Assembly: GCA_015057325.1 (NCBI GenBank)
Contig: SVEQ01000002.1
Coordinates: forward strand, 62,001 to 126,000
Direction: 5' to 3'
Length of the DNA stretch: 64,000 bases
Source of the DNA: Lachnospiraceae bacterium
GTDB lineage: Bacteria; Bacillota; Clostridia; Lachnospirales; Lachnospiraceae
This document shows positions 46,718-63,993 of this stretch, one piece after another. The stretch's first letter is position 1; each line of letters begins with the position of its first letter. Made by a program: the position numbers and the translations under genes. The notes under the pieces were generated by a model that was not told the origin of the DNA, did not search any database, and was given only the letters and a program-made list of their open reading frames with translations.

Positions 46718-46750
46718 AAAAACCCTGCCAAGACGTATCCCGGCAGGGTT
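46718..46750 (-). terminator. terminator of the TIR-cyclase-PGDY operon
   Basis: 9-bp perfect stem AACCCTGCC (46750-46742 with 46729-46721, minus strand), 12-nt loop, followed by TTTTTTAT. It begins 6 nt past the stop of the 46756 gene. Confidence 0.9.
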
Positions 46751-46755
46751 AACAT

Positions 46756-47748
46756 TTACTCTGATTCATATGTATGTTTAAAAATATCTTTCTGTATAAT
46801 ATATATATCACTAAGGTCATCTACTCTTACAGCCATATAATCTCCGGGTCTGCCCAGAAAATAATCCCCGTCCTTATCTGCCGGAAATACTTTTGTACGC
46901 TTATCAAGCTGTTTTGCGTAAATCCCATTGCCTTTTTGTGGGTAGCAAAGGTGTGCCATCTCGTCTAAACTGATATACTCACCATCCGGCACCGTCTCAA
47001 CCTCAGGAAGAAAATCTAACATCTGTGTGAATACATCTAACTTTTCATCGGTAGTTTCATAAGTCGACTCAAATTTGTTCTTTTTAATGTAGTATACTTC
47101 TCCACGAGAACCAATCATTATATAAAGGTCATCATCCGCTTCAATCTCCGTTCCCGACTCATTTTCTAAAGATTTGATAAGGAGCTTTTTTCCCGCAGGA
47201 GTTATATCTGTTGATTTCACATAAGCCCATGTAATCTTTTTCTTATGAAAACGTTCAAAGTCCGCAATGGCTTCGGGCTGTTTGGCAAGATAATCCTTTG
47301 CGTATATCCAGTCATTTTCCTTAAAATATGCTTCTCCCATTTTCAAAAAATATTCCATTATTCCACCAAGTTCCATATCAGAAATCTGCGCCTGTAAAAT
47401 AGCACAAGAAACTCGTGCTATTGCAAAAAACTCGTTTCCTTTAATCAGACCATATTCATCAACCAACGAATCAAGAAACTCAATGGCACGTAATCTTTTA
47501 TTGTCAGATAAGAACAAGAGTCTTATTTCCACCTGTAAACTGCAAACAAACAAAAGATAGTCACAGTCAAACTTAGTTAAAAGTTCTCTGACCTTTTTCT
47601 GTCCCCCCTGTTCTTCTAACGTTTCCATTACATTAGAAGAAATCTCACAAATCACAAGCCGCTCATCAAAATAACGATAACACTCCCGACCGGTTGTCAA
47701 TTCATCTATTCCATTAGTCAATTCAAATCCATAATTATTACAATTCAT
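46756..47748 (-). CDS. protein with two PGDY-like repeats, function unknown
   Basis: 330 aa, soluble. The first 170 residues look helical with no motif I know. Two related C-terminal units follow: residues about 175-232 (WAYVKSTDITPAGKK ... GSRGEVYYIKKNKFESTYE) and 277-328 (YAKQLDKRTKVFPAD ... GRPGDYMAVRVDDLSDIYIIQKDIFKHTYE). Both end in F-x-x-TYE, and the second has the GRPGDY core of PGDYG-type domains. Last gene of a three-gene operon, 24 nt after the cyclase. A sensor or ligand-binding role is an inference from that company. Confidence 0.7.
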   Translation of the reverse strand: MNCNNYGFELTNGIDELTTGRECYRYFDERLVICEISSNVMETLEEQGGQKKVRELLTKFDCDYLLFVCSLQVEIRLLFLSDNKRLRAIEFLDSLVDEYGLIKGNEFFAIARVSCAILQAQISDMELGGIMEYFLKMGEAYFKENDWIYAKDYLAKQPEAIADFERFHKKKITWAYVKSTDITPAGKKLLIKSLENESGTEIEADDDLYIMIGSRGEVYYIKKNKFESTYETTDEKLDVFTQMLDFLPEVETVPDGEYISLDEMAHLCYPQKGNGIYAKQLDKRTKVFPADKDGDYFLGRPGDYMAVRVDDLSDIYIIQKDIFKHTYESE

Positions 47749-47772
47749 AAAATGCTCCTAATCTTACCTGCT

Positions 47773-48948
47773 TCATTTTTCTATGTAGCACTCATAGGCT
47801 CCTGCAATTCCGACAACCTCGCCTACAGGAATTGGGTTTTTTAATCCTTTGGCCATAATATCCAATCTTTTGGCAACCTGTACCGGGCAATCCGATTTGC
47901 TAATTGCTTCCTCTGACACTAATATCTGTCCACCGGCACTTTTACCTTCGATTCTGGAACACTCATTTACCACACGACCAATAACATTATATCGCATCAT
48001 TCTTTCAGAACCGATGTTACCAACAAAAACCTCACCGCAATGAATACCGATTCCCATTTCAAGTTTGGAATATCCTTGTCTTACACAATACTCATTAACC
48101 TCTTTCATGGCATTCTGCATGGAAATGGCCGCTGCTATCGCATCTGATGTAGGATTATCCAAATCAAGCGGTGCACCAAATACAGACAATAACCCATCTC
48201 CCAAGAACTCAATTACAGTGCCATGATACTTAAGAATTACCTCAAGCATTTTATCAAAATAAAAATTAAGTAATGCCGTTACCGTTTCGGGCTCCATATC
48301 TTCCGAAAGCGATGTAAATCCTCTAAGGTCGGACATCATAACGGTAACTTCACGCTTTTCTCCGCCAATCGTTGCACCTTGCGGGTATTCCAGTATAACT
48401 TCCACAACATCATCAGAAAAATATCTTCCCAAGACCTTATACAAAAGATCATTCATTGTTTTTAACTGTTGATTAAGACTAACAATTTCCTTTGCATTTT
48501 TTAAATCTGTCGCCTGTTTTTGAAGCATTTTCTCATAATTTTTTGTATTCTCATATTGCCATGCGGCATTCTCTATTCTCATTACTTCTGATTTTGAAAA
48601 AGACTTGTGAAGAATCACCATTGCACCTTTGGCATAACATTCCTCTTCCACATCTTCACTTTTCTTCTCAACCACAAAAAATAACGGAACACCTGCTAAC
48701 TCCCGTTGTTTTTTGATAAATGATAAAGGATCAAACTCAGACTTTATAACCAAATCATAGTCTATGATTATCAATGAAGGTCTACTAATATCAGATGTAC
48801 TATTATAATTATCGGAGGCAACAACTTTTTGCAACGCTTCAGAGGAAAGCATACAAAGTGCCTGCATACTTCCGGTCATATTAATCTTTCTTTGCATTTC
48901 TATCATTTGATTTCTATTATTGCCTATAACCCAAATTATTTTCTTCAT
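47773..48948 (-). CDS. receiver-linked class III nucleotide cyclase
   Basis: 391 aa. Residues 1-125 form a receiver-like domain (Asp63 in IIDYD, Lys115 in ILHKSF, but no clear acidic pair at the N-terminus). A coiled coil at about 130-175 leads into the cyclase homology domain (195-360). Metal-binding Asp207 (MMSDLRGF) and Asp251 (FLGDG), and transition-state residues Asn328 and Arg332 (VVNECSRIEG), are present. At the base-recognition positions there is Glu247 (Lys in adenylate cyclases) and Asn321 (Asp/Thr in them); the usual Asp of IGD is Arg325. It is probably active but its product is uncertain. It sits between the TIR and PGDY genes. Confidence 0.88.
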   Translation of the reverse strand: MKKIIWVIGNNRNQMIEMQRKINMTGSMQALCMLSSEALQKVVASDNYNSTSDISRPSLIIIDYDLVIKSEFDPLSFIKKQRELAGVPLFFVVEKKSEDVEEECYAKGAMVILHKSFSKSEVMRIENAAWQYENTKNYEKMLQKQATDLKNAKEIVSLNQQLKTMNDLLYKVLGRYFSDDVVEVILEYPQGATIGGEKREVTVMMSDLRGFTSLSEDMEPETVTALLNFYFDKMLEVILKYHGTVIEFLGDGLLSVFGAPLDLDNPTSDAIAAAISMQNAMKEVNEYCVRQGYSKLEMGIGIHCGEVFVGNIGSERMMRYNVIGRVVNECSRIEGKSAGGQILVSEEAISKSDCPVQVAKRLDIMAKGLKNPIPVGEVVGIAGAYECYIEK

Positions 48949-48963
48949 AGATAAACCCCTATC

Positions 48964-49836
48964 TTACCATTTGGTGTGCCATGTTCCTCTTGAAGTCTGT
49001 CTGCTACTGCTTGCAAAACCTTTTCTTTGACCTGATTTGCATAAATCGCATAAAACTCCGGTTCTAATCGGTGCACCACACTGTGAGCACGACAATCGAA
49101 CAGATGATAACTTGGGAATCTCTAAATATTCCTGTTCAAAAAAATGATTAATAACCCTACGTGAAACTCCTGTCTCACGCTCTATAATAACTGCCGCTGT
49201 TGCACCATTTTTTTCCAAGTAATTACGAACAGTCTGAAAATCATCATAGTTATCTTTTCCACATTGATTACAGCGATATGTCCCCACTTCTATTTGAGTT
49301 AAATCACCCTTACAATAACGGCACTCTGTGGGAATTTTATTAATGGAAAGGGCATTGCGTCTCTTTGCCTCTCCGGCAGTTATTTTCCTGCCGGACACCG
49401 TTTGTTTTTGCTTTAACATAGATTTTTGCTGTCCTGATATCAAAAACTCTAATTTTTCTTTCAGATCAACAACAGCATTTTCAGGATTATCGGAATATGA
49501 TATCATCTGCACATTATTAAGATAAAACAAAAACATCTCACTCATTGGTGTAGAATCAATCTGTATCGGTATAATAACCTTACGATTTCTGACTGCACTG
49601 TCCAATTCTTTCTCCACCCAAATTGATTCCTGTGAAGAAGCCGAAAGAAGAAGCAAAAACACTTCACACTCCGAAATTGCCTTAGGAATTTCTCTTGCAT
49701 AATTAGACCCTGCAGGAATCATATCCGGTGCTTTCCAATAAGAAACGCCCATATCCCTTAAAACTTTAGCAAAAGTGTTCACAAATGCACTATCTTTTGA
49801 ACTATAACTGATAAAAGCATATTTTTTTACAGCCAT
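48964..49836 (-). CDS. TIR-domain protein with two zinc ribbons
   Basis: 290 aa. TIR domain 1-135: KYAFISYSSKDSAFVNTFAKVLRDMGVSYWKAP, AISECEVFLLLLSASSQESIWVEKELDSA; Glu77 is at the place of the catalytic glutamate of NAD-cleaving TIRs. Zinc ribbon 1: C172-x2-C175 ... C189-x2-C192. Residues 200-240 look like a helix-turn-helix (ETGVSRRVINHFFEQEYL). Zinc ribbon 2: C250-x2-C253 ... C263-x2-C266. First gene of the operon, 15 nt before the cyclase gene. No cyclic-nucleotide-binding domain is visible. Confidence 0.88.
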   Translation of the reverse strand: MAVKKYAFISYSSKDSAFVNTFAKVLRDMGVSYWKAPDMIPAGSNYAREIPKAISECEVFLLLLSASSQESIWVEKELDSAVRNRKVIIPIQIDSTPMSEMFLFYLNNVQMISYSDNPENAVVDLKEKLEFLISGQQKSMLKQKQTVSGRKITAGEAKRRNALSINKIPTECRYCKGDLTQIEVGTYRCNQCGKDNYDDFQTVRNYLEKNGATAAVIIERETGVSRRVINHFFEQEYLEIPKLSSVRLSCSQCGAPIRTGVLCDLCKSGQRKGFASSSRQTSRGTWHTKW

Positions 49837-49883: not shown

Positions 49884-49912
49884 ATTTTACCACAAATAAG
49901 CATTTATGAGAA
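49884..49912 (-). promoter_or_regulatory. sigma-A promoter of the TIR-cyclase-PGDY operon
   Basis: -35 TTCTCA (49912-49907), 17-bp spacer, extended -10 TGGTAAAAT (hexamer 49889-49884). About 50 nt upstream of the TIR start codon. Confidence 0.55.
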
Positions 49913-50005: not shown

Positions 50006-50605
50006 TTATGCCTCTGCAGCGATTGCAGCCTGAATTGCATAATGTATCTTGTTTTGTACTTTTTTAAAAAACTGTATAGATTCATCAGCTTGAGGATCAT
50101 AATCAATACTTGTTGCATATATTTCTAACACCTGTCTGTAAAAAACCTTCTCAGAAGCACGAATGTCACGTATTCTTTCTAATAGTTCTTTAAAATATCC
50201 ACCACCACCGAGTTCTTTCAGACGGTCATCATCCATCGTGAATCCTTTTATCATATATTCCTTTAAACGCTCAGTTGCCCATTTGCGGAAATTTGTCGCA
50301 ATTTTAGAATGGACTCTATACCCCAATGATATTATCATATCTAGATTATAATGATTAATATTCCTTTCAACAGATCTATCACCCTCAAATTGAACTGTTC
50401 GGAATTTCCGAACAGTTGAGTCTTTGTCTAATTCCCCTTCATTATAAATATTCGTAATATGCTCACTTATATTAGATTTGGAAGTTTGATATAAATCAGC
50501 AAGCTGAAGTTGTGTAAGCCATACTGTATCTTCTTCCATTCTTACATCGATTTTTGTAAGACCATCATCTGATTGGTAAATAATCACATTGCCTTTATAA
50601 TCCAT
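50006..50605 (-). CDS. RhuM-family protein, C-terminally short
   Basis: 199 aa. MDYKGNVIIYQSDDGLTKIDVRMEEDTVWLTQLQLADLYQTSKSNISEHITNIYNEGEL is the conserved RhuM opening (a DNA-binding-like segment); ISLGYRVHSKIATNFRKWATERLKEYMIKGF follows. Usual members run to about 330 aa and continue past NKIHYAI with an HGHTAAE motif; here the frame ends at NKIHYAIQAAIAAEA. So it is probably a truncated or variant copy. GAGG lies 8 nt before the ATG. RhuM genes are common in accessory and defence regions; the function is not established. Confidence 0.8.
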   Translation of the reverse strand: MDYKGNVIIYQSDDGLTKIDVRMEEDTVWLTQLQLADLYQTSKSNISEHITNIYNEGELDKDSTVRKFRTVQFEGDRSVERNINHYNLDMIISLGYRVHSKIATNFRKWATERLKEYMIKGFTMDDDRLKELGGGGYFKELLERIRDIRASEKVFYRQVLEIYATSIDYDPQADESIQFFKKVQNKIHYAIQAAIAAEA

Positions 50606-58545: not shown

Positions 58546-59553
58546 TTAACTCCTAACGTAAAATGTTGCTTCTTTAATCTGCGCAGGTTTAAAAATGGTA
58601 TCAAATGGATTCGTATATACAATTAACTCAGGTGATTGATTGTGCAATAATCTTTCAATCCAATTTACTTTAAGAATATAGTATCTGTCTCCCATTTCTT
58701 GCATAGTAACCATTTCATTATGTGTCATAGTAAATAGTTTTCCGTCTTTCTTACTGGTTTTAACCTCAATCATTATCCTATCATTTTCCATCTCCACAAT
58801 AAGATCGCAGCCTTCACCAACGGATTTGTCTTTCCAATTATCATCTGTTTCAAATCCTTCATTAAACCAAACTACGTTATATGGTTTCTTGTCCGCCGCA
58901 ATTCTCTCTAACAGTTCTTTATTACGGTTCATCAACAGCATATAGATATACTTTTCTCCCAACCACCCAATGCTTTGCAACTGTTCTTTAGTAAATGAGC
59001 TGTTATTTGAATCCTCTCTCCTTGTCGCTTTCTTTTTTTTACCGGTTTTCACTTCAGGGCATTCAACCAATACAGGAGCAATCACACTATCTGAAGTCAA
59101 AGATTCACTCAATGAATCCATAAACTCATTGTGCTTGTTATATCCTTTAAGAAAAGCCTTGTATTCTTTTTCAGATAGAAATTTGGCTTTTTCAATAATT
59201 ATAGAACTCTCTTGCGGTGAATTCGTAATCCTGAATCCAAAACTACGAATAATAAAACTTATAAATGATGTATCATTCAGTCTAACACCGTATGTAGCGT
59301 CCAGTTGCTCCCTCAAAAAAGATGGACATCCATCATTGTCATTTAAATATAATCTCAACTGGTCCCCATACTTGGTTCCTTTCTTAACAATATATGGGTA
59401 TTCATCCGAGTACATTCCCTTGTACTTTTCCTTAAACTTTTCTACTCTATCTGCAGGAACTGTCGCTTCGATCTTGTTAACAACACCGGGACAGGCTAAA
59501 TACCCTATTGCTTCACACATATCTTCTTGGGATGGCCATTCTATCTTACTCAT
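58546..59553 (-). CDS. DUF3883 (NO VEIN C-terminal) nuclease-like protein
   Basis: 335 aa from the ATG at 59553, with AAGGAG 6 nt upstream; a TTG at 59577 is inside the methyltransferase gene. The C-terminal domain reads GWLGEKYIYMLLMN, VVWFNEGFETDDNWKDKSVGEGCDLIVEM and IMIEVKTSKK. That is the DUF3883 pattern, with a possible D...ExK nuclease centre. The N-terminal 180 residues are unassigned. DUF3883 proteins commonly accompany restriction and other defence genes. It overlaps the methyltransferase operon with no gap. Confidence 0.78.
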   Translation of the reverse strand: MSKIEWPSQEDMCEAIGYLACPGVVNKIEATVPADRVEKFKEKYKGMYSDEYPYIVKKGTKYGDQLRLYLNDNDGCPSFLREQLDATYGVRLNDTSFISFIIRSFGFRITNSPQESSIIIEKAKFLSEKEYKAFLKGYNKHNEFMDSLSESLTSDSVIAPVLVECPEVKTGKKKKATRREDSNNSSFTKEQLQSIGWLGEKYIYMLLMNRNKELLERIAADKKPYNVVWFNEGFETDDNWKDKSVGEGCDLIVEMENDRIMIEVKTSKKDGKLFTMTHNEMVTMQEMGDRYYILKVNWIERLLHNQSPELIVYTNPFDTIFKPAQIKEATFYVRS

Positions 59554-59563
59554 ATTTTTCTCC

Positions 59564-60634
59564 TTATGTATTAGCAAATGCCTTTTCTATACTATCTGCA
59601 ATAGCTTTTGCTAAAAGTGGCGGAACAGCATTTCCTATTTGTTTTCTAATATAAACCTTTGAACCATAAAAAATAAAACTATCGTCAAAAGATTGTATAC
59701 GTGCTGCTTCCCTTGGTGTAATCGCCCTATGTAAATACGGATGATTATTGGTTCCATTGGATGATGCATCAAACCTTGTATCAATTGTGGGTGAAACCTC
59801 ATCCCACTTAAGTCTTCCCCAAGTGGTTTTGAACTTCTGATTACCGTGTAATTCCACAGGCAAAAACTCCTTTCCTTGTTCCGGTGGAATCATTTTCAAT
59901 TTTTCTATAGCAACTTGTTTATGATTAGATGCTTTATGATTATATAACAGTTCACTATTACTTCGCATAAGCTTCTGATATTCTGTCTGCGGATTTGTTA
60001 TATACTCTTGAACAAACTGTCCCTCACCTGAGTCAAGATATGACAAATCGCTTATTGCATCTCTTACCGTCACATTTTTTTTTGCGGTAGGTTTAGGTAA
60101 TGGAATAGCTTGTTTCTTTGAACAGATAAAGATAGCCCTTTCTCTGGCTTGCGGAACTCCAAAATCAGCAGCATTCAATACTCCAAATTCAACCATGTAT
60201 CCCAACTCGTTTATTACTTTCAATATTTCATCTCTGAACCATCCATTAGATGCAAGCAAAAGACCTTTTACATTTTCAATAACAAACACTTCCGGCTTCA
60301 ACTCTTTTACAATATTTAAATACTCTCTAAACAAAAAATTACGAGGATCTTTTAAGCCTAATTTTTTCCCTTTCATCGAATAGCCTTGACATGGCGGACC
60401 ACCAATTATCATATTGACTCCTTTAGCTTTTGATAAGGAAATGATATCGTTTTTTATCCGATTATCTGTTATGTCCCCAACAACAACTTCTGTTTCCGGC
60501 ATATTTTTTTTAAATGTATCAGCAGCTTTTTCATCAAAATCAAGAGCTACTACCGTAGTAAAATTAGGATTTTTATCCATTCCATAAGAAAAGCCGCCGG
60601 CACCGCAAAAAAGGTCAAGCACATTAAACAACAT
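59564..60634 (-). CDS. DNA (cytosine-5-)-methyltransferase
   Basis: 356 aa. Motif I VLDLFCGAGGFSYGM, motif IV MIIGGPPCQGYSMKGK with the catalytic Cys, motif VI PEVFVIENVKGLL, motif VIII-type QARERAIFI, and motif X YIRKQIGNAVPPLLAKAIA. The target-recognition region between about 190 and 300 is not identifiable by eye. It overlaps the adenine methyltransferase gene by 11 nt. It methylates C5 of cytosine in a specific site; which site is unknown. Confidence 0.95.
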   Translation of the reverse strand: MLFNVLDLFCGAGGFSYGMDKNPNFTTVVALDFDEKAADTFKKNMPETEVVVGDITDNRIKNDIISLSKAKGVNMIIGGPPCQGYSMKGKKLGLKDPRNFLFREYLNIVKELKPEVFVIENVKGLLLASNGWFRDEILKVINELGYMVEFGVLNAADFGVPQARERAIFICSKKQAIPLPKPTAKKNVTVRDAISDLSYLDSGEGQFVQEYITNPQTEYQKLMRSNSELLYNHKASNHKQVAIEKLKMIPPEQGKEFLPVELHGNQKFKTTWGRLKWDEVSPTIDTRFDASSNGTNNHPYLHRAITPREAARIQSFDDSFIFYGSKVYIRKQIGNAVPPLLAKAIADSIEKAFANT

Positions 60635-61694
60635 TTTCTTCTACCTCGTAATTAATTTTCCTTATTAAGATTCTTTTAAATAATTCTTTACCTGCTATTC
60701 TTGGTTTAAATAAATCAAATTCGTTATCAGATCCATGATTCGCTTCACCTATTATTTCAAATTGAGAATCATTATAGTATTTAAGAAAAGTTATAGGAAC
60801 ACCCATAACGCCATCATAATCCATAGGAATATTGGCTACTCTTGAAACATTTATAGCATCATAATCATCAAAAACCGGATAAACTAACGGATCAAATCTT
60901 TGTGTAAGAATTAATTCTTTATGTCGTCTGGGTATATCAAGGTTTGTAAGCCACATTGCATTTCCAAGACTTCTCCACTTTTGTCCATATTCATCTATCC
61001 AAAACCTTGTTTTTCTTGGTTCTGTATCACTTGGAACTTTAAATGACATATCCCCAAAGTGATAGCCAACCCAAGCTTTATTCTCCTTGATATAAGGAAA
61101 AATCTCTTTATAAGTAATTGCATTTTGATTTCCTATCAACAAAAACTTTTTCTTATACTTCATTAATAACGAGAATAGTGATGCAAACAAACTAAATGGC
61201 GGGTTTGTACAACAAATATCGCATTTTTTCAAGTATTCTATGCATTCATCTGAGCGAAAATCTCCGTCTCCTTTTAGTTTTTTTACCGTTCCCTTTCTAC
61301 TTAACATTTCCTTTATTGTTTCATCATCAACTTCTGAATCACTTTCCCCGGGCATACGTGAAATTTCAAGAACATAACCGTTTCTCGAAACAATAGGATT
61401 GCCCTCTTCATCCTCAATCGTCAGAACCATTTGAACGTTATTTTTGATAGTATCAATTTTAGATGCTCCATAAGAAGTGCATATCAATTTTTTTATTCGC
61501 AATATATTAAAATTCTTCAAAAAATAATATGTAAAATTTGACTCATACGGATCATCACAATTGCATAAAACCACCTTACCTCTGAACTGTTTTTCATAAT
61601 GTCTAAGCTCATCAGCTATAGTTTCATATGTTGTATACCATTCATCCGTATCAGCAGAATACTTAGCATTATTTAAAATTGCATTTCCTAACAT
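60624..61694 (-). CDS. M.EcoRI-type adenine-specific DNA methyltransferase
   Basis: 356 aa from the ATG at 61694, 8 nt after AAAGG; the frame opens at 61739. The chosen start gives NAILNNAKYSADTDEWYTTYETIADEL, which lines up with the M.EcoRI N-terminus. VVLCNCDDPYESNF is a family hallmark, and CDICCTNPPFSLFASL is the catalytic NPPF. It makes N6-methyladenine. Most M.EcoRI-type enzymes recognise GAATTC-like sites, but specificity is not readable here. Confidence 0.9.
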   Translation of the reverse strand: MLGNAILNNAKYSADTDEWYTTYETIADELRHYEKQFRGKVVLCNCDDPYESNFTYYFLKNFNILRIKKLICTSYGASKIDTIKNNVQMVLTIEDEEGNPIVSRNGYVLEISRMPGESDSEVDDETIKEMLSRKGTVKKLKGDGDFRSDECIEYLKKCDICCTNPPFSLFASLFSLLMKYKKKFLLIGNQNAITYKEIFPYIKENKAWVGYHFGDMSFKVPSDTEPRKTRFWIDEYGQKWRSLGNAMWLTNLDIPRRHKELILTQRFDPLVYPVFDDYDAINVSRVANIPMDYDGVMGVPITFLKYYNDSQFEIIGEANHGSDNEFDLFKPRIAGKELFKRILIRKINYEVEENVV

Positions 61695-61887
61695 ATTCAT
61701 TAACCTTTCTTTATCCGACTCTGTAGTACCGTAAGTCATCCACCTTCAAATCAAATCTGACAAGATAATAATTACCACTCCGTTTTGCTGTTATATGTTT
61801 AATTTTATTTCTCCAATTGTTTTCTCCTCTTTCTCATTTTTATTTCCCGCGCTTCAACGGCTTAATGTTTGAGATACAGAAAAAGCA

Positions 61888-63993
61888 TTAGTCCAATGAA
61901 ATATATGGTTTCAATATCTCTCTCATATCATCATACTCTAGACGCCTCTTTTGATACAGTTCCTTTTGTAATGCATCTAAAGCCTTTCGATTATCCTTTA
62001 AAGCTTTCGCTGCTTCCGCCATTTGATTTGCTAATATCTCATTTATCCGTTTATATATTCTTTCACCGAGTGGCGATGTCATGAACTTTTCGATGTCATC
62101 AACATCCAAATAAGAAACCATAAAATCATCTTCCATTGCATAACAGGTAAGATATTCTCTGGCAAGACTTGTCGCATACTTCAGGTCAACGCCCAGTCCT
62201 ATTGTAATACCCCTATTCTCGCCATATGCCACAACCTCGGCAGCCCTTCCTGCTAAGAAAATACGAATGTGTGAAAGGAAATCTTCTTTTCTCCTATGCT
62301 CAATTTTAAAATCAACATAACCGCCAAAATTACCACGCGAAACCACTGTAGCATAATCCGGGTAGAACTTCTTACCTGACAAGAATCCCATCAGTGCATG
62401 ACCAGCCTCATGATATGTGACTTGCTTGAATTCTTCCGCACCATCACCTGACTTAGTTTCCAGCCCATAATAATATTCCTCAAAACAATCATAGAGGAAA
62501 CCATAATCTACTTCTGTACATTTCATAACTGCCTGCGACATAGTATAATTAATGACATTTTCAATCTCTGCCAGACTCTGTCCGCTCATTACCCTGGCAA
62601 ACTTCTCTACATCAACATCACTAAGCCCGCTCAAATCATAAGTCAGCTTTTCTTTGGACATTTCGTCAATCTTTTTCTTGATAAATAATGTTCGGCTATT
62701 TAATCCCGGTTTTTTGATTAAAATACTATTTCCAAATCTACGCAACAACGCTTCGTCTAAAATACCAGGATCGTAATTAGTCGCAGCGATTACGAATACC
62801 GGTCTGGAAGGATCTGTTTCAAATCCATCCATCTCTGTCAAAAGCTGATTAATAATTCTGGCATCACCGTCGTGCCTTATACGGTCTTTTGCAATCACAT
62901 CAATCTCATCGATAAATATAATTGATGGTGCATATTTTCTTGCAAGGGAAAATACAGTATGAATATCCTTCACTACTTCATCGCCTGTATGTGAGTGATG
63001 GTTTTCCTCATTTTTTAATAACTCAACACCGGTACAGGATATAAACGGACAGTCAGCCTCATTTGCAAGAGCCTTTGCCAGCAAAGTTTTTCCCGTACCG
63101 GGTGCACCATACATCAAAATACCCCTTGACACCTTTGCACCGCTTTTTCTGAACCAATCCGGTTTCTCTAGAAAAATCTTGAACTTCCGCAATTCATTGA
63201 CAGCCTGTTTGTTTCCAATCACATCGTCAAATGTCACTCCCGGACGGTTTTTGTCATTAATCATAACAACTGCCGCATCTTCACCAAAGTCATTGATCTC
63301 CTGGTAATTACCGATTTCCAGTTCTATAGTATTTATTTCCTTTTGTTCTAGAATATTTGAATTAAATTCAAGTTTTCGGCCTTTCTTTTGAAGACTTTGC
63401 ACTTTTTCCTGCAGGAAACACTCTTTCACAAAAGTGCTTAAGTCATACTCCATCTTTGTCATGGAAATGATATCCTCAATACCATTTTCCAATAACTCCT
63501 TTTTCTCTGAAGCAAGGTAATCTCTTTCAAAGGATACGGCATATACAGGTGGAGTATTAGGTTGTTTTTGAAGCCAGCGGTATATCTGTGCCGGAACGGA
63601 ATCATTTAGCAGAAGGCTTTCATAAACCTCTTTTTCCTGTTGTTTTTGACGTAATTTTCCTCCCACCATATTATAATGAAAATCTATTAATATACCATCG
63701 ATTTGGGTTTCCGGGTCCTTGAGGAGATTCCTGATATTTTTTTCTTGTTCATTTTCTTTTGGTTCGCTTTTTTCAAACTGATGTATATAATAGAGCTTAT
63801 AGGCGGAGTCCTCTGACATCTTTTCAAAAAGTCTGTGCTTATCCCCTTTTCCATCCTTATTCCCACATATGACAATAAAATTCCTCGTTTCCCTTTTATC
63901 TGCTTCCCAGAGATAATTCTTTGCAACATCCCCATCTAATGCTAAAGTCGCCTTTACTTTCTTGATTTTTTCTTTCGCTTTCTCAGACTGCAT
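61888..63993 (-). CDS. soluble FtsH-like AAA+ zinc protease with receiver-like N-terminus
   Basis: At least 701 aa; the frame is open to the window end, so the true start may lie outside. Residues 36-180 look like a receiver fold (FIVICGNKDG, Asp104 in ILIDFH, PPVYAVSF). AAA+ module: Walker A GAPGTGKT (296-303), Walker B SIIFIDEID (357-365), NQLLTEMDGFE, arginine fingers LLRRFG. Peptidase M41: HEAGH (528-532) and third-ligand Asp603 in GLGVDLKYATSLAREY. No membrane helices, unlike FtsH. Next to the methyltransferase/nuclease genes, 150 nt away with no terminator in between. Confidence 0.88.
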   Translation of the reverse strand: MQSEKAKEKIKKVKATLALDGDVAKNYLWEADKRETRNFIVICGNKDGKGDKHRLFEKMSEDSAYKLYYIHQFEKSEPKENEQEKNIRNLLKDPETQIDGILIDFHYNMVGGKLRQKQQEKEVYESLLLNDSVPAQIYRWLQKQPNTPPVYAVSFERDYLASEKKELLENGIEDIISMTKMEYDLSTFVKECFLQEKVQSLQKKGRKLEFNSNILEQKEINTIELEIGNYQEINDFGEDAAVVMINDKNRPGVTFDDVIGNKQAVNELRKFKIFLEKPDWFRKSGAKVSRGILMYGAPGTGKTLLAKALANEADCPFISCTGVELLKNEENHHSHTGDEVVKDIHTVFSLARKYAPSIIFIDEIDVIAKDRIRHDGDARIINQLLTEMDGFETDPSRPVFVIAATNYDPGILDEALLRRFGNSILIKKPGLNSRTLFIKKKIDEMSKEKLTYDLSGLSDVDVEKFARVMSGQSLAEIENVINYTMSQAVMKCTEVDYGFLYDCFEEYYYGLETKSGDGAEEFKQVTYHEAGHALMGFLSGKKFYPDYATVVSRGNFGGYVDFKIEHRRKEDFLSHIRIFLAGRAAEVVAYGENRGITIGLGVDLKYATSLAREYLTCYAMEDDFMVSYLDVDDIEKFMTSPLGERIYKRINEILANQMAEAAKALKDNRKALDALQKELYQKRRLEYDDMREILKPYISLD

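Follow-up and report, generated by a model that had tools for sequence, protein, structure and literature searches.

Most of what is known about bacterial TIR proteins concerns their work as immune enzymes, and a TIR gene that adjoins a class III nucleotide cyclase gene raises the question of whether the pair serves defence against phage or ordinary signalling. Such a pair lies on the minus strand of a 64,000-nucleotide stretch of a Lachnospiraceae bacterium (contig SVEQ01000002.1, positions 62,001 to 126,000; hereafter, the window), in an operon of three genes that encode a TIR protein, the cyclase, and a protein with PGDY domains. An earlier note on this DNA had compared the operon with Pycsar, in which a cyclic nucleotide activates a TIR effector. 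Across more than 50 bacterial species of gut and rumen, we found the three genes still side by side, far more often than chance would allow. Whether they serve flagellated Lachnospiraceae as a conserved module for second-messenger signalling rather than as a phage-defence cassette is, in our judgement, an evenly balanced call, and it is the reading that we develop here.

When 84,980 species genomes were searched with a profile built on the TIR protein, 54 loci emerged, nearly all from Lachnospiraceae or unclassified Clostridia and many of rumen or gut origin; one carries a Bacteroidales title, and its match position equals that of a locus from the window's genus. The TIR gene is followed by the cyclase gene and then by the PGDY gene in 52 of the 54 loci (51 directly; L111 by tblastn), and the remaining two are a locus that stops at a contig edge (L123) and an unrelated TIR-PASTA protein (L134). 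The fixed order upholds the earlier proposal that the three genes are one unit, which by the note's own criterion would have fallen had they rarely been neighbours in related genomes. Median gaps across the loci are 21 nucleotides (nt) between the TIR and cyclase genes and 11 nt between the cyclase and PGDY genes, 4-nt overlaps are frequent, and the cyclase and PGDY genes are fused into one in nine loci. One further locus (L118:8747-12460) holds a cyclase-PGDY fusion followed by another, separate PGDY gene. At closer range, 38 of 115 related genomes encode a match to the PGDY protein, and the order TIR-cyclase-PGDY recurs, beyond the window, in 17 more genomes of its genus and in one of a different genus (G039); counting the window's own, 18 of the genus's 26 genomes carry the module. 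Tree distances of the three proteins correlate with one another at r 0.71–0.88, the cyclase and PGDY proteins most closely (r 0.88), as compared to 0.47–0.55 with FliG. These trees indicate that the three proteins are inherited together, perhaps with some transfer of the module between lineages.

Most relatives also carry a sensor gene upstream. A GAF-GGDEF diguanylate cyclase gene lies directly upstream in 33 of 51 loci, a gene for a xylose-isomerase-like TIM barrel precedes in 31 of 51, and the two are fused in six. In other lineages, the upstream position is taken by a GAF-only protein, by a GAF or seven-transmembrane hybrid histidine kinase (with receiver and Hpt domains), or by unrelated genes. 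In L117, a second TIR gene (TIR + DUF6273; L117:5489-6907) lies just upstream of a GGDEF-TIR-cyclase-PGDY operon. The carriers tend to be flagellated: FliG is present in all nine carriers of the family sample versus 201 of 396 genomes in the family (Fisher p 0.004, kinship ignored), and in 29 of the 32 carrier genomes reached via named loci versus the same 201 of 396 (Fisher p 5e-6, kinship ignored). Among carriers of any PGDY gene, FliG was found in 55 of 64, versus 146 of 332 genomes without PGDY.

In the window, the three open reading frames lie at exactly the positions given by the earlier note, with gaps of 15 nt (TIR-cyclase) and 24 nt (cyclase-PGDY), and its shared terminator, placed at 46718-46750, corresponds to a good hairpin followed by a T run. 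Its promoter (49884-49912) fared less well and remains unproven, because the site matches at 9 of 12 positions and such sites are no commoner in the region (12) than in shuffled sequence (13.2). Pfam gave clear matches for TIR_2 in gene 1 (E 1e-20) and Guanylate_cyc in gene 2 (E 2e-27), and weak ones for a receiver in gene 2 (E 0.019) and PGDYG in gene 3 (E 0.005). The catalytic residues that had been proposed, namely Asp207 and Asp251 of the cyclase and Glu77 of the TIR protein, are invariant among relatives.

The cyclase resembles guanylyl cyclases. In a model of the relative from L037 (25 sequences, pLDDT, the predicted local distance difference test, 85.5), the best match among solved structures is Cya2, a guanylyl cyclase of Synechocystis (PDB 2w01; Z 30.4 over 201 residues, 45% identity), with which the module cyclase shares the glutamate at the guanine position. 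D207, D251, N328, R332, and E247 are invariant in 25 of 25 relatives, which is the residue set of a class III guanylyl cyclase. The receiver domain named in the earlier note corresponds to a degenerate receiver-like domain at the N-terminus: D63 is kept in 24 of 25 sequences and K115 in 20 of 25, whereas positions 10-11, which we take to be the place of the Mg2+-binding acidic pair, are not conserved, and the Pfam score falls below the cut-off. Guanylyl cyclases have Glu in place of the Lys of adenylyl cyclases, and their second base residue varies (PMC4215837, PMC7384201). At that second position, the module cyclase has Asn where Cya2 has Gly, and before the transition-state Arg it has Ser331 where Cya2 has Tyr; it further differs from Cya2 in being preceded by a degenerate receiver and encoded with TIR and PGDY proteins. 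Because of the Asn and Ser331, the product is uncertain; GTP is a likely but not certain substrate, and the predicted product is a cyclic purine nucleotide, probably cyclic GMP (cGMP). Most relatives' cyclases carry a C-terminal domain of about 110 residues (~395-499 in L037:9809-11308), which models as six strands and a C-terminal helix in a barrel-like arrangement. Sequence searches of Pfam and the PDB gave no match for this domain, and its identity as PilZ was not confirmed, the likeness lying solely in the order of elements.

The PGDY protein appears to descend from a nucleotide phosphodiesterase. Residues 13-145 of its AlphaFold model (16 sequences, pLDDT 85.8) match, in Foldseek, the DHHA1/C-Ala domains of DHH phosphodiesterases, RecJ, type II pyrophosphatases, and alanyl-tRNA synthetase. 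Of the top 50 PDB matches, nearly all belong to the DHHA1 or C-Ala type (Z 7.7–10.8), mostly over these residues. The full-length protein aligns with residues 187-502 of 22 DHH-DHHA1-PGDY proteins (HHalign E 4e-59), and its N-terminal half alone matches their profile at E 7e-6 (probability 67%). The paralogues retain the DHH domain and mostly the GGGH motif, whereas the window family has lost the DHH catalytic domain and carries GL(I/V)KG in place of GGGH, which places it outside the DHH-DHHA1 phosphodiesterases. It thus shares the DHHA1 fold with NrnA, GdpP, and DhhP, along with full-length homology to the DHH-DHHA1-PGDY proteins, and differs from these enzymes in having neither the DHH domain nor GGGH and in adding tandem PGDY domains. 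Judged by sequence and predicted fold, the PGDY protein is what remains of a phosphodiesterase, and a role in sensing nucleotides is plausible on that account. The suggestion that it could be the ligand sensor of the operon therefore gains indirect support, since it corresponds to the DHHA1 and PGDY part of a nucleotide phosphodiesterase; the binding itself is putative.

PGDY and TIR domains meet in a second, distinct architecture as well. In 9 of 22 loci, the gene for an intact DHH-DHHA1-PGDY protein directly adjoins one that encodes a TIR-beta-propeller protein, and in a tenth locus the two lie within a few kb of each other; one of the nine adjoining pairs is in the window's own genome. This pairing is widespread in the order and commoner in flagellated genomes.

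The TIR protein has the marks of a catalytic TIR domain joined to a nucleic-acid-binding or docking tail. Its E77, in the motif WVEKE, and all eight cysteines are invariant in 19 of 19 sequences, and E77 aligns with the glutamate of Cat1 and other NADase TIRs, making it a predicted WxxxE-type catalytic residue. The earlier note had pointed to zinc ribbons and a helix-turn-helix (HTH)-like segment in place of a cyclic nucleotide-binding (CNB) domain; both parts of that description are correct, and the tail can now be placed with a known type. Residues 184-281 match YvyF (TIGR03826; E 1e-16) with the same succession of zinc ribbon, HTH-like segment, and zinc ribbon. The score of 61 bits lies below the curated cut-off of 124 bits, and, unlike YvyF, the domain is fused to TIR; the TIR C-terminus is thus a homologue of YvyF that falls outside the family, and it probably serves for docking or for binding nucleic acid. 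In the window's genome, the canonical YvyF-like gene lies after a comF-like gene and before FlgM-, FlgN-, and FlgK-like genes (names inferred from sequence). A free-standing YvyF paralogue of ~150–170 residues, also zinc ribbon-HTH-zinc ribbon, occurs in non-flagellar contexts (L184:7634-8149; similar in L186-L190, L193-L196, and L198) and is nearest to the TIR-fused domain. A flagellar role read straight from YvyF is weakened by this, the fused domain being nearer the second paralogue. Coordinates of all features are collected in Table 1.

Table 1. Coordinates of the operon, its encoded domains, and the second PGDY-TIR pairing (window positions unless a locus is named)
Feature	Coordinates	Strand	Basis or key residues
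Gene 1: TIR protein with C-terminal zinc ribbon-HTH-zinc ribbon, 290 aa	48964..49836	-	Open reading frame and domain matches
TIR domain, residues 7-120	49477..49818	-	Catalytic-type Glu77 in WVEKE, invariant 19/19
YvyF-like domain, residues 169-268	49033..49332	-	CxxC..CxxC, HTH-like segment, CxxC..CxxC; 8 Cys invariant
Gene 2: class III nucleotide cyclase with degenerate receiver at N-terminus, 391 aa	47773..48948	-	Open reading frame, domain and structural matches
Receiver-like domain, residues 1-125	48574..48948	-	Pfam, model, alignment
Cyclase catalytic domain, residues 196-386	47791..48363	-	D207/D251 metals, E247/N321 base positions, N328/R332 transition state
Gene 3: PGDY protein, DHHA1-like domain and tandem PGDY domains, 330 aa	46756..47748	-	Model and profile
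DHHA1-like domain, residues 13-145	47314..47712	-	Fold match; GGGH replaced by GL(I/V)KG
Two PGDY units, residues ~174-330	46759..47229	-	Pfam, alignment, profile
Intrinsic terminator, operon end	46721..46750	-	13 pairs, 7 G-C, then T run
DHH-DHHA1-PGDY + TIR-beta-propeller pairs	L050:4824-9394 (own genome, G000:C20); L049, L135, L137, L139, L144-L146, L149		

Read as a signalling module, the operon would work in four steps. An input would act on the cyclase through its receiver-like domain and coiled coil; the cyclase would then make a cyclic purine nucleotide, most likely cGMP; the DHHA1 domain of the DHHA1-PGDY relic would bind this product or a nucleotide related to it; and the PGDY domains would control the TIR protein as the output, which may cleave nicotinamide adenine dinucleotide (NAD) or act as a scaffold, aimed by its zinc-ribbon/HTH tail. 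Control of motility or lifestyle is our best guess for the physiological output. The fuller version of this scheme is tentative, and we rate it as possible but somewhat doubtful: a cyclic mononucleotide from a guanylyl-type cyclase would be read by the DHHA1-PGDY relic rather than by a CNB domain and would switch a TIR enzyme, PGDY would control TIR proteins in general, in the DHH-PGDY/TIR-propeller pairs as well as in this operon, and NAD-derived chemistry would serve normal physiology, such as motility, and not immunity.

Several observations weigh against the signalling reading. For the cyclase, the Pfam score of the receiver-like domain is weak, the second base position (N321) is Asn in 24 of 25 sequences and so falls outside the guanylyl cyclase residues listed in one of the two papers cited above, the Tyr through which Cya2 makes better use of GTP is absent, and the window copy has no counterpart of the C-terminal domain of most relatives. 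With GGGH lost, the DHHA1 domain of the PGDY protein may have lost ligand binding too. The window copy has no upstream TIM-barrel or GGDEF gene, and a search of the rest of its genome for the TIM-barrel gene, made without a positive control, gave no match. As for flagella, the nearest free-standing relatives of the TIR-fused YvyF-like domain lie outside flagellar operons, three carriers have no FliG, and the co-occurrence statistics ignore relatedness.

If the operon instead mediated abortive infection in the manner of Pycsar, infection would trigger the cyclase, its cyclic nucleotide would act on the PGDY protein and through it on the TIR protein, and the loss of NAD would halt the phage. The invariant Glu77 of the catalytic-type TIR domain would suit this course, and the cyclase domain is hit by the PycC profiles of PADLOC (E 1e-23), probably because the class III catalytic domain is shared. 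A cyclase and a TIR protein also occur without a CNB-domain receptor in the 10 of 18 carrier genomes of the genus that have no PF00027 match. This lack of the usual cyclic-nucleotide receptor also counts for the signalling reading, because any cyclic mononucleotide in those genomes probably needs another receptor. The likeness to Pycsar (PycC + PycTIR) thus extends to a class III cyclase gene next to a TIR gene and to the invariant metal aspartates and TIR glutamate. It ends at the base pocket, which is guanylyl-type: characterised Pycsar cyclases carry F100/R142/Q144, Y50/D94/R97, or F60/K104/F109 (PMC11224242), whereas the first two of these positions, which we located not by structure but by counting back from the metal aspartates (two residues from the first, four from the second), are M205 (M, I, or L in 25 of 25) and E247 (25 of 25) in the module. 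No CNB domain was found in any of the three proteins at E 1, and the operon adds a DHHA1-PGDY gene. On the pocket residues and the missing CNB domain, we reject membership in Pycsar, and with it the parallel drawn in the earlier note.

The genomic setting bears on the same question. The impression of a defence-rich region arose because the window holds a truncated RhuM gene as well as methyltransferase genes between 59.5 and 61.7 kb, which would speak for a defence role, and it does not carry over to relatives. Their flanks encode transport, metabolism, and signalling proteins by Pfam, and the 74 flanking proteins gave few PADLOC matches at 1e-20, mostly to helicase- or transporter-type models; we therefore reject a defence-island setting. 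No relatives of the module were found in the collections of phages, plasmids, and viral contigs, on which ground a mobile or phage origin is likewise rejected. With 18 carriers among the genus's 26 genomes, the module is steadier than most defence genes, and the GGDEF, GAF, and kinase sensors and the flagella that accompany the module also stand against abortive infection, which we consider unlikely. Thoeris does not fit either: the TIR domain matches ThsB profiles (E 5e-10), whereas the operon holds no ThsA-type partner and PADLOC matched the TIR protein alone.

Within the window itself, the RhuM-family gene (50006-50605) looks truncated, as its Pfam match spans only positions 1-137 of 252. 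Two adjoining methyltransferase genes (59564-61739; type II methyltransferase profiles) are flanked, within 58546-63993, by a TmtA-like protein and an IetA-like AAA protein.

A different division of labour, to which we likewise assign a low probability, would have the PGDY protein regulate the cyclase itself and the TIR protein serve as a structural adaptor that positions the complex, with no NAD chemistry. The nine cyclase-PGDY fusions and the top tree correlation of these two proteins would agree with it, and a YvyF-like tail suggests a docking or nucleic-acid-binding part; yet a pure adaptor would not need the TIR glutamate and WVEKE motif to be invariant in 19 of 19 sequences, and PGDY also pairs with TIR genes that have no adjacent cyclase. 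That the three genes are chance neighbours in an operon shared by this lineage only has no point in its favour, is refuted by the fixed order, short gaps, and fusions across 52 of 54 loci, and retains next to no probability.

In the literature searched, we found no published TIR-cyclase-DHH operon, no publication on the PGDYG domain (PF14083), and no description of the system, which we regard as a variant form of signalling by nucleotide second messengers that includes a TIR protein. The PGDY domain gains a candidate role as a partner of TIR proteins. If the signalling reading is true, the DHHA1-PGDY relic would represent a new type of receptor for cyclic mononucleotides, and these flagellated Lachnospiraceae would offer a rare case of TIR chemistry at work in ordinary signalling, outside defence islands.

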